From a virus: a DNA stretch of 57,497 bases. The DNA lies in the IMG/VR virus record IMGVR_UViG_3300020582_000009, positions 1 through 57,497 of that record; one strand, given 5' to 3'. This document shows, piece by piece, positions 48,269 to 57,497 of this stretch (within the stretch, counting starts at the first letter, position 1; each line of letters opens with the position of its first letter). The notes beneath the pieces are model-generated. The model worked only from the letters and a program-made list of their open reading frames with translations. It had not been told where the DNA came from and searched no databases. A program made the position numbers and the translations under genes.

Positions 48269-48472
48269 GTGACTGACGAACAGATCAAATACACGGTCGA
48301 TCGCTTCCTTGGCTGGAAGCTGCCAAGCAACTTTAGCCCGGACGCCGGAATCAGTTTCAAGCGCCCGAACTATCGTCCGTCTGTTGACACGACGCCTTCT
48401 GGCACAAATCTTTTCGACGCTGCGCAAGCCGAGGTCATGGTTCGGTATATGGTCGATGGAATGCCTCATTGA
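48269..48472 (+). CDS. Hypothetical early protein, 67 residues
   Basis: GTG start with AGGAGAA site. DEQIKYTVDRFLGWKLPSNFSPDAGISFKRPNY then TPSGTNLFDAAQAEVMVRYMVDGMPH: a layout shared by many phage early proteins of alphaproteobacteria. Function unknown. Confidence 0.7.
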   Translation: MTDEQIKYTVDRFLGWKLPSNFSPDAGISFKRPNYRPSVDTTPSGTNLFDAAQAEVMVRYMVDGMPH

Positions 48473-48485
48473 AAAGACCGAACCA

Positions 48486-48923
48486 ATGACCCTCGCCTAT
48501 CTCGGCACGCCCTACACAAAATTCAAACGCGGATTAGAAGCCGCATTCGTCGAAGCATCTAATCTCGCCGGCCGTTTACTAAGCGCTGGCGTTTTCACAT
48601 TTTCCCCGATCGTTCATTCGCATCCCCTCGCGACTCACGCCAACCTCGATCCTTTGGACCTGAATATCTGGTACGGCATCAATCAAATATTTATGGCCCG
48701 CTGCGATGTCCTGATCGTCGCCCACATGGGCGGCTGGCAAGACTCCAAAGGTATCGCTTACGAGATCGAATTTTTCGAAAAGGCAGACAAGCCGATCTTT
48801 GATCTCGATGTAGAATCGCTGGCGATGATTCGCAGAGCGAAGACTGAATTCACCGGCGATCCGCGCATGAAATGGTCGATCAAGGACATGCCGCCGTTCT
48901 GGACGAAAGCGGTGAGCGAATGA
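48486..48923 (+). CDS. DUF1937-type protein
   Basis: 145 residues, ATG 48486. LAYLGTPYTKFKRGLEAAFVEASNLAGRLLSAG, SPIVHSHPLA, and CDVLIVAHMGGWQDSKGIAYEIEFFEKADKPIFDLD fit the DUF1937 family, a Rossmann-like relative of nucleoside 2-deoxyribosyltransferases. It may act on nucleotides or NAD-like substrates, which is inference. Confidence 0.8.
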   Translation: MTLAYLGTPYTKFKRGLEAAFVEASNLAGRLLSAGVFTFSPIVHSHPLATHANLDPLDLNIWYGINQIFMARCDVLIVAHMGGWQDSKGIAYEIEFFEKADKPIFDLDVESLAMIRRAKTEFTGDPRMKWSIKDMPPFWTKAVSE

Positions 48924-50752: not shown

Positions 50753-51238
50753 ATGGTTAAGAGAGGAATGTCACGTTATGCTATTCGTCGCGCGCGCGAA
50801 CATCAGCGCGCGCTTGCCAAAGAGCGTCCCGATATTGATTGGGACAAAGTTAGAGAAGAATACGAAAAACATTTCGGCCCTCTAAGGTTTCTTCCGAAGA
50901 AGAAAAAATCGCCAAAGACTGCTGTTTATTTAATGAGTGCAACCGATTTTGGACCTACAAAAGTAGGAGTGGCAATTGATGTGGAAAAGCGCCTTTCTCA
51001 AATTCAGACGGGCCATCCCTTTCCTTTACGATTATCTTATGTGATTTGGTTTTCTGAGCCACAAAGTGCATTTGATGCTGAGAAATGGCTTTTACAGGAA
51101 GTAGATCAAGAGTTGCGGCTAAATGGCGAATGGATAAATAGTCCGGCTGCAAAACTCACAGAGATGCTTCGAAATTTCGCGCGGCGACATTTGGCTTCCT
51201 CGATCATTGAAACGATCGGTGGCGAAGATGCCCAATAA
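50753..51238 (+). CDS. T5orf172/MUG113 GIY-YIG-superfamily protein
   Basis: 161 residues with a GGGAGAGG site. Basic N-terminus, then AVYLMSATDFGPTKVGVAIDVEKRLSQIQTGHPFPL, EKWLLQEVDQELRLNGEWIN: the Y...G...KVG..D...RL..IQT pattern of T5orf172/MUG113 domains, which share the GIY-YIG fold. Possible roles are DNA cleavage or host takeover. It ends inside the start of the next gene. Confidence 0.75.
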   Translation: MVKRGMSRYAIRRAREHQRALAKERPDIDWDKVREEYEKHFGPLRFLPKKKKSPKTAVYLMSATDFGPTKVGVAIDVEKRLSQIQTGHPFPLRLSYVIWFSEPQSAFDAEKWLLQEVDQELRLNGEWINSPAAKLTEMLRNFARRHLASSIIETIGGEDAQ

Positions 51239-51962
51239 AGATCGCCCCGCTTATATAGCACTCGCGCGCTCTTTTATTCGCGATCTGCGTTATCGGCGCC
51301 CCTCTGGACGCCCTTTGACCGAATTAGAGGCCACTATCTGGCTGATCGCAGAAGCGGCATGGAAACCACGCGGATCGGCGACGAGATTTGGTTCTATCCA
51401 CAATGAAAGGGCGCAATTATCCATTACACAAAGGGCGCTCGCTAGAGAATGGAAATGGTCGAAATCGAAAGTGCATCGTTTTCTTTTTGAACTGCGCCGA
51501 GATGGCACCATTGCGATAGACTTGGCCTTTCCTGGACCAAAAACCGAGGCGCAAACCGAACCGAGACGGGGATATGGTCGTACCCTTATCACCTTGATTA
51601 ATTACGATAAATTCCAAGGTTTTGGAAAGTCAGCAAAAAGATTGGACCAAGCTTTGGACCAAAAAGTGGACCAATCTCGGCCCGAACTGCCCGGACTTAT
51701 TTATCCAATTGCATCCAAACCAACAGAAACCAATAAATCAATTAAGAGTCTTGCGGGATCGTTCATTAATAAAAAACGTCCACCTCATGGGAAATGCTGG
51801 AACGGGCTTATATGCATACATTACGCGACCGAGGATTGGAGAATTTATTCAGCCGATTATGAGAAAGCGAATGGTTTAATAATTATGCCCTGCACCTATA
51901 TTGACGGTCGGGCGCGATGGTTTAAAGTGAATGGCGGGATCGATGATCGCCGAACAGGCTGA
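51228..51962 (+). CDS. Replication initiation protein candidate, 244 residues
   Basis: ATG 51228 (upstream TTG 51207 less likely). N-terminus PNKDRPAYIALARSFIRDLRYRRPSGRPLTELEATIWLIAEAAW, then a winged-helix (LSITQRALAREWKWSKSKVHRFLFELRRDGTI), typical of phage replisome-organiser or DnaD-like initiators. The C-terminal part is basic (INKKRPPHGKCW). It lies at the end of the rightward early operon, where such genes usually are. Confidence 0.7.
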   Translation: MPNKDRPAYIALARSFIRDLRYRRPSGRPLTELEATIWLIAEAAWKPRGSATRFGSIHNERAQLSITQRALAREWKWSKSKVHRFLFELRRDGTIAIDLAFPGPKTEAQTEPRRGYGRTLITLINYDKFQGFGKSAKRLDQALDQKVDQSRPELPGLIYPIASKPTETNKSIKSLAGSFINKKRPPHGKCWNGLICIHYATEDWRIYSADYEKANGLIIMPCTYIDGRARWFKVNGGIDDRRTG

Positions 51963-52176: not shown

Positions 52177-52815
52177 ATGTCACTTCTAATCGGCCATCCG
52201 ACATTAGAAACAATTGCCTCGCATTCTCCTGTGGCCGTCCCTGTCTTTGATCGCAAATGGTATATTGTTCAATGCTTTGGCAAGTCCGATAACCAGGCGC
52301 TCAATATTCTCGAAACCATGGGTCTGACGACCTATTACCCCAAAATCCTGGATCTTCGTAAAGTACCTCGCAATAAGCTTTCCCGCGCCCAACGCTCGAC
52401 CGATGTGGAAATCAAGCGCCCTCACGTTATTCCCCTTTTCCCTCGATACCTGTTTGCATGGTTCGATATCACCCGCGATTCGTGGCGCGATATCTTCAAA
52501 ATTGCTGGTGTCGGGGGATTGGTCTGCAAGAACGATATGCCGGTCTATATGCCGCAAGAGCAAATCGATAAATTCAAGAATCGCGAGAACAACGGCATCA
52601 TTCCAGGCTCGGCAACGGTGCGACTGACTTTCGGTATCGGCGACCATGTGAACGTTACGGCGGGTCCTTTCGCCTCATTTCCGGGGATTGTCGAAAAAGG
52701 CTTGGATATGGCGATCGGCGATCTTGACCCGACGGCACGCATCAAGGTAGCGGTGAATATCTTCGGACGTGCCACTCCCGTCGAATTGGAACTATGGCAA
52801 GTTGCCAAAGCGTAA
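52177..52815 (+). CDS. NusG/RfaH-like transcription antiterminator
   Basis: 212 residues. The NGN domain is recognisable: KWYIVQCFGKSDNQALNILETMGLTTYYPK, LFPRYLFAWFDITRDSWRDIFKIAGVGGLV. The KOW-type C-terminus follows: FGIGDHVNVTAGPFASFPGIVEKG and IKVAVNIFGRATPVELELWQV. NusG paralogs bind RNA polymerase to prevent pausing or termination. It is the last early gene, directly before the repeat element and the terminase genes. A role as the late-gene antiterminator (in place of a Q protein) is therefore attractive, but is inference. Confidence 0.85.
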   Translation: MSLLIGHPTLETIASHSPVAVPVFDRKWYIVQCFGKSDNQALNILETMGLTTYYPKILDLRKVPRNKLSRAQRSTDVEIKRPHVIPLFPRYLFAWFDITRDSWRDIFKIAGVGGLVCKNDMPVYMPQEQIDKFKNRENNGIIPGSATVRLTFGIGDHVNVTAGPFASFPGIVEKGLDMAIGDLDPTARIKVAVNIFGRATPVELELWQVAKA

Positions 52816-52848
52816 GTTTTGCGTTATGGGGTTTCTCAGTCTCGCGTA

Positions 52849-52909
52849 GCCACGCTTTTAGCCACTCTCGCAGCCACGCGAAAGGCCACGCGGAGTGCGA
52901 AAGCGTGGC
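52849..52909 (+). repeat. Four 12-base tandem repeats plus inverted arm
   Basis: GCCACGC begins at 52849, 52873 and 52885, and GCCACTC at 52861, giving four units at an exact 12-base period. GCCACGCTTT (52849-52858) is also the reverse complement of AAAGCGTGGC (52900-52909), so a long stem can form, with CACTC near 52865 pairing with GAGTG near 52894. It lies 33 bases after the NusG-like stop and ends 43 bases before terS. Candidates: antitermination RNA element, terminase recognition site, or terminator. Confidence 0.7.
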
Positions 52910-52951
52910 GGATAAAAGGCAATTCTGAGTCCCTGTGAGTCAAAAAGCGCC

Positions 52952-53587
52952 ATGCAACCTTATGATGGTTCAACGCCGCATTCCGACAGGGATCGTGAGA
53001 CGTTCTGTCAAGAACTAATCGCGGGCGAATCACTTTACGTCGCCTTTCAAAATGCCGGCTTCAAGCGTCCGCGCGGCAATGCGCAGCGGATGCAGCAGGA
53101 ACCGGATGTCCTCAAACGTCTCGAATATCTGGCCGATCGCGTCAACAAGCTCGGCCTCGACGAAATCCTCGTCAGCTATCGCCGCAACGAGCATCGCCGC
53201 GCGCTTGAGCACATCGCCAATGCCGATCGGCTCTCGCTGTGGACCGACAAGACCAAGACCGTCGTGATCGGCAAATCGAAGGACGACAAGCCGATCCGTC
53301 GCAAATTGCGCAGCATCGAGCTCAAGCCGCTTGACAGTCTGACGGCGGAGGAACGCGCGCTGATCGACGGCTTCGAAGTGACGGAAAAGGGCGCCGTCAA
53401 GGTCCTCATGCCCAAGCGCCTCGATGCCCGCGCCATGCTGGCGAAGCTCGATGGACTGGACAAGCCAGTACGCGGTGAACTCACCGGCAAGGATGGCGCG
53501 CCTTTGGTTCCGGAATTCACCGATGAACAACGCGCGGCGGCATTGGCGGCATTTTTGAGCAAGAATGCGGCGGGGAAAGCGGCGTGA
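52952..53587 (+). CDS. terS: Terminase small subunit
   Basis: 211 residues. TPHSDRDRETFCQELIAGESLYVAFQNAGFKRPRGNAQRMQQEPDVLKRLEYLADRV is a terminase-type helix-turn-helix region (first 60 residues). The central helices and a basic, Ala-rich C-terminus follow. TerS recognises the packaging site and hands DNA to TerL. It is separated from terL (56941) by six or more accessory genes, which is unusual. GTG overlap with the next gene. Confidence 0.8.
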   Translation: MQPYDGSTPHSDRDRETFCQELIAGESLYVAFQNAGFKRPRGNAQRMQQEPDVLKRLEYLADRVNKLGLDEILVSYRRNEHRRALEHIANADRLSLWTDKTKTVVIGKSKDDKPIRRKLRSIELKPLDSLTAEERALIDGFEVTEKGAVKVLMPKRLDARAMLAKLDGLDKPVRGELTGKDGAPLVPEFTDEQRAAALAAFLSKNAAGKAA

Positions 53588-54116: not shown

Positions 54117-54794
54117 ATGATCGGATACCGCAAAGTCGTGATTGCCGGCGCGGCATTGACTGTTTCAGGCGCTATCGCGTTCGCGGCGGGCAATTGGTCC
54201 ACCCTGCCGCAGGTCGGCGAATCGTCGTTCTGCGCTTCGACCGTCACCGGCATTGTGCTGCCGACGCCGCAAGGACCGTTCGGCGTGGTGCCCGGTTCGA
54301 CGCAAGGAACGGGATCGTCAATTTGCGGACAGACCGTGCCGGCCGGCCCTGCGGCTTTAACGGGCACCGAGATCATTCCGGCGGACACGCAATTGTCCGG
54401 CAGTGCACCGCCGCAAACGGTCACCATCCCGATCGTGTTGTTCGATGCCGGAGCCTACACCTATACGTCGTGGCTCAATACGCTTGGCGCGTCGCCGAGC
54501 ACGTTGACCATTCCGAACAACACTAGCCTGTTCCTGCTCGATCCGACCGGCACTGTCACGTCGCTGACGCTCTATATGCCGTCGGCACCGCTCAATGGCC
54601 AGATGATTCGTATCGCTTCGACGCATACCATCACGAATCTCCTGTTGCAGGCTGCGACCGTCAACGGCGCCTTGAATGCGACCATCGAGAATTCTCCGAC
54701 GATCCTGACGGCTTCGACCACTGGACCGTTCAACTATGATTACATCTATTCGACGACCGCCATCAACGGACCGCTCTGGATTCGCGTCCAGTGA
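54117..54794 (+). CDS. Exported beta-rich virion protein, 225 residues
   Basis: Signal peptide VVIAGAALTVSGAIAFAAG, then Thr/Pro/Ser-rich beta sequence (TIPIVLFDAGAYTYTSWL, TIPNNTSLFLLDPTGTVTSLTLYM). This looks like a surface decoration or fibre-like domain. It sits among terminase and envelope genes rather than with tail fibres. Function unknown. Confidence 0.65.
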   Translation: MIGYRKVVIAGAALTVSGAIAFAAGNWSTLPQVGESSFCASTVTGIVLPTPQGPFGVVPGSTQGTGSSICGQTVPAGPAALTGTEIIPADTQLSGSAPPQTVTIPIVLFDAGAYTYTSWLNTLGASPSTLTIPNNTSLFLLDPTGTVTSLTLYMPSAPLNGQMIRIASTHTITNLLLQAATVNGALNATIENSPTILTASTTGPFNYDYIYSTTAINGPLWIRVQ

Positions 54795-54955
54795 TTGTGG
54801 CTATCGTCATCATGGGGTGTGCGGCCGTGATCCTCATCAGCCGCACACTCCGCCTACCAACCGACTTTGAGAACAGTTGCAAAGCGCGGCATAGGGCGCA
54901 AGCCATCGTGAGAGAGTGGGAAGACAAGCGATGGCGGGAGTCCTCGGCTTTGTGA
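54791..54955 (+). CDS. Single-pass membrane mini-protein, 54 residues
   Basis: GTG start overlapping the previous stop (GTGA). VIVAIVIMGCAAVILISRTL, then a charged tail FENSCKARHRAQAIVREWEDKRWRE. Overlaps the O-antigen-like gene by 25 bases. Type of a small membrane partner; no family. Confidence 0.55.
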   Translation: MIVAIVIMGCAAVILISRTLRLPTDFENSCKARHRAQAIVREWEDKRWRESSAL

Positions 54956-56046
54956 TTGTGACGATGTTCTGGCCTGGGATGGCCGGAGCCGGGGTCGCAT
55001 CCAAATGGGTCGCTTTGCAGGTCTTGCTGCCGCTCACGCTTTGTTTCGTTCAAGTGCGCGTTACGGCAGTGCACTTAGTTATGGCGGCGATCTTCGCTTG
55101 GGCTTTGGTGTCGTTGGCGTGGGTCGAAGTGCTGCCAGACGGAATCGAGGGGCTGTCATTTCTCGGAGTAATCGCTCTTTCGTTTCTGGTCGGTCATGAC
55201 ATCAATATCGACTGTCTGTTGCGCGGTATGGGACTGGGACTATGGATATCGTCGGCTGTTGCTATCCTGCAATGGTTCGGCATTTATCCGGTGACATCCG
55301 CGGGTGATGGCGGTCCTTCGACTGGGCTTTTCGTCAACTCCATCTTTCTCGGCGAAATCAGCGCCGCGGTGCTGCTCGGGCTCATCGCGCAAAGTTCATG
55401 GATTATCGCGCTCGGCGTCATACCGGGCTTGCTTCTCAGTGGGGCGCGTGGGGCGGTTTTAGCGGCCGGAATTGCATTCATCGCGTGGTGCGTGCCACGC
55501 ATTCGGGAAAGGACGCTGATCATCGTTCCGGTTCTCACAATGCTGTTGCTGGCGGTCGAACCCGACAAATGGCTCTATTCGCAGACATGGGCCACGCGGC
55601 TGACGTTCTGGCGCGATACGATTGAGGGGTTGACATGGCGGGGACATGGCATCGGATCGTTCGTCTCGATGTTCCCGGCTTATGGCGACGGCATCGATCT
55701 GGTCTCTATCCAGCCGACCCATGCTCACAATGATTTCCTCGAACTTGCGTTCGAACTCGGATTGCCGGGAGTGATACTTGGCGCGCTTCTGGTCGGCATG
55801 GTACTTTGGCGTGCGCGAGAGCGCGAGAGGCTGGTTCTACTCACGCTGGGAATCACTGCTCTATTCGGGTTTCCGCTTCACATGGCCTGCACTGCCTTTC
55901 TATTCGGTGCTGTGGCGGGTCACGCTGCTGGGGGCTGGGATAGGGTTCGGATCGGCACACTTTTTGGCCGATCGGGCGTTTACGAAGGGCGCCAATTCGC
56001 TGACCTTGGCGGATTTGCAGCGGGCGGCGAGGCTCTACCCCTATGA
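54931..56046 (+). CDS. O-antigen polymerase/ligase-like (Wzy/WaaL) membrane protein
   Basis: 371 residues, about ten hydrophobic segments (for example FAWALVSLAWVEVLP, AAVLLGLIAQSSWIIALGVIPGLLLSG). The extracellular loop motif PTHAHNDFLELAFELGLPGVILGALL is the hallmark of the O-antigen ligase/polymerase family, with conserved His and Glu. A phage gene of this kind can change the host surface polysaccharide (seroconversion). The last about 45 residues overlap the next gene and look out of frame. Confidence 0.8.
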   Translation: MAGVLGFVIVTMFWPGMAGAGVASKWVALQVLLPLTLCFVQVRVTAVHLVMAAIFAWALVSLAWVEVLPDGIEGLSFLGVIALSFLVGHDINIDCLLRGMGLGLWISSAVAILQWFGIYPVTSAGDGGPSTGLFVNSIFLGEISAAVLLGLIAQSSWIIALGVIPGLLLSGARGAVLAAGIAFIAWCVPRIRERTLIIVPVLTMLLLAVEPDKWLYSQTWATRLTFWRDTIEGLTWRGHGIGSFVSMFPAYGDGIDLVSIQPTHAHNDFLELAFELGLPGVILGALLVGMVLWRARERERLVLLTLGITALFGFPLHMACTAFLFGAVAGHAAGGWDRVRIGTLFGRSGVYEGRQFADLGGFAAGGEALPL

Positions 56047-56940: not shown

Positions 56941-57497
56941 GTGACCGATCTGACTGCCGCGCTGGCCCATATCAAGGCCATGGCGCCCGAGGAAAAGGCC
57001 GCTTTTGATCTTCTATTTGCCTCGGAACTCAGCAATATCGCGCTTGCGGCGCGATTTCCGATCGAATGGAAGCCGCGATCCTATCAACAAAAGGTTTGGG
57101 ACTATCTCGAATCCGGTGGCAAGCGAGCCTGTCTGATATGGCATCGCCGATCCGGCAAAGACGACATCGCATTGAACTGGGCCGCCAAGGCGGCGCATCT
57201 GCGGGTCGGCGAATACTGGCATATGCTTCCTGAAGCCTCCCAAGCCCGGAAGGCGATTTGGGACGCCGTCTCTCCGCATACGGGCAAACGTCGCATCAAT
57301 CAGGCTTTTCCGGCTGAGTATATCGACGGAAAAGTTCACGAACAGGATATGAAAATACGCTTCCGCAACGGATCGCTGTGGCGGGTGGTCGGTTCGGACA
57401 ATTACGAAAGCCTGCTTGGTTCGACGCCGGCCGGAATCGTGTATTCGGAATGGGCGCTTGCGGACCCCAATGCGCGGGCTTTCCTGCGGCCGATTCT
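56941..57497 (+). CDS. terL: Terminase large subunit, N-terminal part (continues at 6)
   Basis: GTG start immediately after the previous stop, with a GGCGGAG site upstream. N-terminal 186 residues in this window: WKPRSYQQKVWDYLESGGKR, Walker A-type WHRRSGKDD at residues 67-75, then the conserved KVHEQDMKIRFRNGSLWRVVGSDNYESLLG and GIVYSEWALADP (Walker B region with Glu). It continues at 6-1064 to a full protein of about 490 residues. Confidence 0.92.
   Translation, partial: MTDLTAALAHIKAMAPEEKAAFDLLFASELSNIALAARFPIEWKPRSYQQKVWDYLESGGKRACLIWHRRSGKDDIALNWAAKAAHLRVGEYWHMLPEASQARKAIWDAVSPHTGKRRINQAFPAEYIDGKVHEQDMKIRFRNGSLWRVVGSDNYESLLGSTPAGIVYSEWALADPNARAFLRPI

Follow-up and report, generated by a model that had tools for sequence, protein, structure and literature searches.

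What does a short stretch between a NusG-like gene and the terminase small-subunit gene (terS) do, when it is occupied by periodic repeats that fold into one hairpin? The window in which this locus lies comprised the 57,497 nucleotides of the IMG/VR virus record IMGVR_UViG_3300020582_000009 and, judged by its sequence, is a P22/Sf6-like podovirus genome. In particular, the best matches of its portal were the Sf6 and P22 portals, and coat, head-closure and gp10-like stabilisation proteins were also identified. The last 145 bases (57353-57497) duplicate positions 4-148, apart from a single mismatch; this overlap of the ends falls within terL and makes the record a near-complete permuted genome, though it is classed as linear. 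Headful packaging would be expected of this phage, as both the P22/Sf6-like portal and the overlapping ends fit it.

The last gene before terS (52177-52815, + strand) encodes a NusG-family protein of 212 aa, with an N-terminal NGN domain and a C-terminal KOW-type barrel. Membership of the family was found both with Pfam (NusG, 3.3e-14, 53.6 bits vs. a cut-off of 22.2) and by structure match, and the protein also matched PHROG 6386, transcription antiterminator (1.6e-19). The NGN and barrel domains were present in the AlphaFold2 model (mean pLDDT 71.7, pTM 0.49), whose predicted fold matched NusG and RfaH structures in a structure comparison. The scores were below the cut-offs of the housekeeping equivalog model of NCBIfam (NusG, TIGR00922; 84.7 vs. 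135.7 bits), the RfaH model (61.7 vs. 144.5 bits), the LoaP model (23.9 vs. 125 bits) and the UpxY model. Moreover, the gene adjoins terS, whereas host copies sit in the secE-nusG-rplK cluster. The protein is a specialised phage paralog. Downstream of the gene, terS (52952-53587, + strand) encodes a protein of 211 aa that matched PHROG 51 (9.1e-7). Further downstream, between terS and terL, an O-antigen ligase gene (Wzy_C, Pfam 3.4e-9) was found at 54916-56046 and a small gene at 54117; both also appeared near terL in three relatives (L064, L065 and L072), and the pair is possibly surface-changing or exclusion cargo.

Repeat units and hairpin in the gap before terS

The gap between the NusG-like gene and terS is 136 bases long (52816-52951), and the repeats lie within it, where the earlier note had placed them. 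Its description of four GCCAC(G/T)C units at an exact spacing of 12 bases, plus an inverted arm, was confirmed by direct reading of the sequence. All four iterons are on the + strand: GCCACGC at 52849-52855, within the unit GCCACGCTTTTA (52849-52860); GCCACTC at 52861-52867, within GCCACTCTCGCA (52861-52872); GCCACGC at 52873-52879, within GCCACGCGAAAG (52873-52884); and GCCACGC at 52885-52891, within GCCACGCGGAGT (52885-52896). The fourth unit is followed by GCGAAA and then by a fifth copy of the motif, inverted (52903-52909, - strand), which reads GCGTGGC on the + strand.

The repeat element at 52849-52909 is non-random. Nowhere else in the 57 kb did a word of five or more bases recur at least four times with a constant spacing (7-40), and in 200 dinucleotide-preserving shuffles of the genome, used as the null, the mean number of such runs was 0.005, any run being present in one shuffle only. 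Pairwise identity reached 39/42 in the 7-base core, whereas the spacers, of 5 bases each, had only 4/30 (Fisher p = 3e-12, with core edges picked post hoc), and on this contrast a decayed tandem duplication lost support. The motif GCCACKC alone showed no enrichment in the genome (25 seen vs. 23.5 expected).

The 61-mer at 52849-52909 folded into a single imperfect hairpin, in which 23 pairs enclose a loop of 8 nt (-33.7 kcal/mol on the + strand and -34.3 on the - strand), so that the stem claimed in the earlier note is real and longer than described there. Its perfect part is GCCACGCTTT/AAAGCGTGGC (52849-52858 and 52900-52909, with 41 nt between them), the 5' arm being iteron 1 together with TTT and the 3' arm carrying the inverted copy. 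Around 119 bases of the gap (52823-52941) form one extended rod in a 121-nt fold (52820-52940), computed separately from that of the 61-mer, with -50.7 kcal/mol and z = -3.2. Furthermore, the two 90-nt folding windows over the hairpin, starting at 52831 and 52839, ranked third and seventh of 639 by z-score on the + strand. In the fold, the partner of unit 1 is the inverted arm and that of unit 2 consists of bases in the segment of unit 4, while unit 3 belongs to the apical part, and the repeats are therefore not equivalent within it; weaker alternative hairpins join the 3' arm with unit 3 or unit 4 (-16.3 and -12.5 kcal/mol). As both strands fold about equally, folding alone cannot tell RNA from DNA.

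Neither strand has a T-tract after the stem (GGATAAAAGG comes next on the + strand, and there is no T-run on the - strand), and the stem at 52849-52909 therefore does not qualify as a canonical intrinsic terminator. The site scan listed neither promoter-like nor terminator-like sites in the gap, and no Rfam family matched the window at gathering score. A seven-codon ATG frame (MGFLSLA) was found at 52826-52849, with a stop codon that overlaps the start of the hairpin by one base; it could be a leader peptide or chance. Elsewhere in the genome, the top + strand folding z-score (-5.3) belonged to a long inverted repeat at 48429-48495, which spans the end of a small gene and the start of a DUF1937 gene.

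The interval upstream of terS in relatives

Searches with TerL (25, 80 and 50 loci) reached relatives at 50-84% TerL identity, while no close relatives were found in viral contigs with the NusG-like protein, TerS or the NusG profile. A NusG/RfaH-like gene was present upstream of terS/terL in six of these distant relatives (L072, L076, L210, L096, L073 and L215, the phage of L071), either directly before terS or within a few kb of it, with the TerS of L076 and L215 being assigned by reading of the sequences. Such recurrence of NusG/RfaH-like genes directly before terS may be worth more than the repeats.

Two of them had intrinsic terminators in the corresponding interval. In L072, it contains GGCCGCAGGCTTGCAATGTCTGCGGCCTTTTTTT, an intrinsic terminator that is part of a larger hairpin of ~60 nt; this hairpin extends from -101 to -45 relative to the terS start, compared with -103 to -43 for the stem of the window. 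In L096, two hairpins followed by T-tracts lie between the NusG-like gene and terS; they were missed by the terminator scan, which was limited to loops of 3-8. By that scan, the interval of L210 had only weak terminator-like sites, and those of L073, L076 and L215 had none.

The GCCAC iterons at 12-base spacing were found in none of the relatives reached, which is formally the outcome that the earlier note had named as refuting its proposal. However, these relatives are too distant for the outcome to weigh heavily: even the nearest were 29% or less identical to the window in the NusG-like protein and 41% in TerS (L072), and in a rapidly changing site the absence of the repeats is weak evidence. 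Four-fold iterons upstream of terL appeared in only a few of 83 relatives, and those of L080, L167 and L172 sit in the initiator gene and not before terS. A host-borne repeat found no support: when 297 genomes from the order to which G001 belongs (a Beijerinckiaceae metagenome-assembled genome with a related TerL) were searched with the gap, only three short weak matches came back, and a search of phages gave one match (E 0.2). Two further sets of NusG matches were set aside: most of those examined in the annotated phage collection were host rpl-cluster contigs, and when the NusG-like protein was searched against 397 genomes, all the top loci checked were host nusG. As a separate observation, the terL match in L081, L083 and L084 was broken in two, with residues 1-71 matching ~1.1 kb away from residues 71-185, as would be expected if an intron or insertion split the gene.

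Transcriptional control, packaging and other possible explanations

The site at 52849-52909 is probably a control or packaging site, and it lies where one for the late operon or for packaging could be expected. The order of NusG paralog, structured interval and terS, together with the terminators in two relatives, suggests early-to-late control, and the gap is, as a tentative first choice, read as a hairpin that acts in cis to gate the passage from early to late transcription, with a Q-like NusG paralog encoded next to it. RNA polymerase coming from the early block would transcribe the 23-pair stem, which would serve as a pause, attenuation or loading hairpin, and at this stem the phage NusG paralog would modify the polymerase, so that the late operon is read from terS onward. 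Three points in this are inferred: the stem would act as RNA, it would affect polymerase, and the NusG-like protein would use it. In favour of such control, the stem is among the strongest of the 639 folding windows and fills the gap. Against it count the missing T-tract, the lack of a promoter-like site and of an ops match in the gap, the equal folding of both strands, and the three relatives (L073, L076 and L215) with no terminator-like site by the scan; moreover, since the repeats were seen in no relative, there is no covariation to look at. Such control would not require the iterons as such, which differ from one another in how they pair in the hairpin. The earlier note had considered this the place for an antitermination-loading site, a terminase recognition site or a late terminator; the setting of NusG-family gene, structured repeats and terS held, and each of the three functions is possible, though a late intrinsic terminator is disfavoured for want of a T-tract; a NusG-RNA switch at the repeats is possible. 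A broader proposal is quite unlikely, namely that in the present group of alphaproteobacterial P22-like phages phage-encoded NusG/RfaH paralogs, each beside a hairpin or terminator before terS, fill the role of lambda Q, that of this phage loading on an RNA stem built of repeats and thereby switching on the late operon. If the NusG paralog did control the late operon through the adjacent stem, this would be a route of late antitermination involving neither Q nor nut, and a phage setting for NusG paralogs in which loading site, regulator and target are found within 1 kb.

Known systems share parts of this arrangement. As with lambda Q and P22 gp23, the regulator gene closes the early block and is followed at once by the late genes, and we take its position to be the place of Q in lambda-type phages; however, the family here is NusG and not Q, and no late promoter, pause or terminator was identified in the gap. 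Among NusG paralogs, RfaH loads at a DNA hairpin, ops (PMC6370827), and LoaP at an RNA hairpin in the operon leader (PMC12691694). The LoaP/dfn leader of Bacillus velezensis likewise combines a NusG paralog, a leader RNA hairpin and control before a long operon (PMC12691694), but its hairpin is small, of the UNCG type and followed by an intrinsic terminator, whereas the window has a 61-nt stem with neither a UNCG loop nor a terminator in the gap. The likeness to RfaH/ops lies in a NusG paralog that loads at a leader element able to form a hairpin ahead of a long operon, which in the window would be the stem; one difference is that the C-terminal domain of the window protein is predicted, in a model of modest confidence, to be a beta barrel. 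No match to ops was found in 52816-52951 at up to two mismatches.

Ranked almost as likely as transcriptional control, though still doubtful, is that the iterons form the packaging (pac) site of TerS, in which case the ring subunits would touch successive GCCACKC units and packaging would start nearby. The phage is P22/Sf6-like by its portal, coat and gp10-like stabilisation protein, the 145-bp end overlap inside terL fits a permuted headful genome, and a strongly conserved core with random spacers resembles protein-binding iterons. A precedent is found in the pac region of SPP1, with direct repeats at the start of terS, and the SPP1/SF6 region resembles the window in having such repeats just upstream of and at the terS start of a headful phage (PMC4737164), although its TerS and repeat sequences are unrelated to those of the window, where TerS binding is putative. 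Counted against a pac site are the pac of P22, which is asymmetric, 22 bp long and located within terS itself (PMC9611059), and the TerS of SF6, which shows little specificity for pac repeats (PMC4737164). Furthermore, a 12-bp spacing drifts by ~50 degrees round the helix per unit, L072 has no iterons upstream of terS despite a TerS 41% identical, and the long hairpin is left unexplained. It should be noted that TerS-pac binding has been difficult to demonstrate in vitro. Should the site be pac, it would give a P22-like phage a periodic target for TerS that lies outside terS, which is rare.

An mRNA processing or stability element (an RNase III-type site or a 3'-end protector) separating the nusG-like and terS messages would suit a 23-pair rod between co-directional genes, as well as the fold statistics of gap and hairpin, and the intercistronic RNase III sites of the T7 early mRNA are of similar size and shape to this imperfect rod; yet the same stem was seen in no relative, the direct repeats would go unexplained and a literature search for support yielded nothing useful, which leaves this explanation improbable. 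The GCCACKC units might also be a DNA operator with five sites, one of them inverted, for a repressor or late activator, and the contrast between core and spacers, the inverted fifth copy and the overall dyad agree with this. Nevertheless, the gap has no promoter-like site, no candidate regulator could be tied to the motif and the rest of the genome shows no enrichment of it. An operator is improbable too. Finally, the periodic repeats and the stem may be a product of chance or a functionless relic, without selected function: the element was unconserved in every relative reached, one of the 200 shuffled genomes had such a run, and the first reading had scanned the whole genome for anything odd. 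This is nonetheless rather unlikely, given that two independent oddities, unique periodic repeats and a top-1% stem, fall in one intergenic gap, and that neutral decay of a tandem array should have eroded the core as much as the spacers, contrary to the identities observed.

Similar repeats elsewhere

When IMG/VR was scanned for three GCCACKC units spaced by 12 bases, 60 stretches matched, the majority being coding arrays of Ala-Thr-x-x. In the frame of these arrays the units of the window read VATL LATL AATR KATR, in frame with nusG past its stop, and this frame closes at 52936. Tetrapeptide arrays such as that of L060 share with the window the GCCAC at 12-nt spacing, but they are long open arrays within genes, whereas the window has four units and no such gene. 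A remnant of a coding array lost support, as 67% of random spacers scored as high on array codon use and the N-terminal domain of the array gene is absent from the window. With regard to the arrays themselves, the one of L060 is part of a phage gene (13701-14170) with 12-nt units, and Ala-Thr-x-x arrays were seen in many IMG/VR contigs, often after a shared N-terminal motif (GGFAAA..W); a literature search on such phage arrays found no paper.

A replication origin is likewise unlikely for the GCCAC set, which lies ~890 bp outside an initiator-like gene that has iterons of its own. This helicase-loader/initiator-like gene (51207-51962) contains three TGGACCAA iterons at an exact 12-base spacing and then an AT-rich stretch (51643-51790), and the iterons with their AT-rich flank are a candidate origin of the lambda-O type. 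In two of the relatives, L080 and L167, iterons of 11 bases were found inside the initiator gene at the same place.
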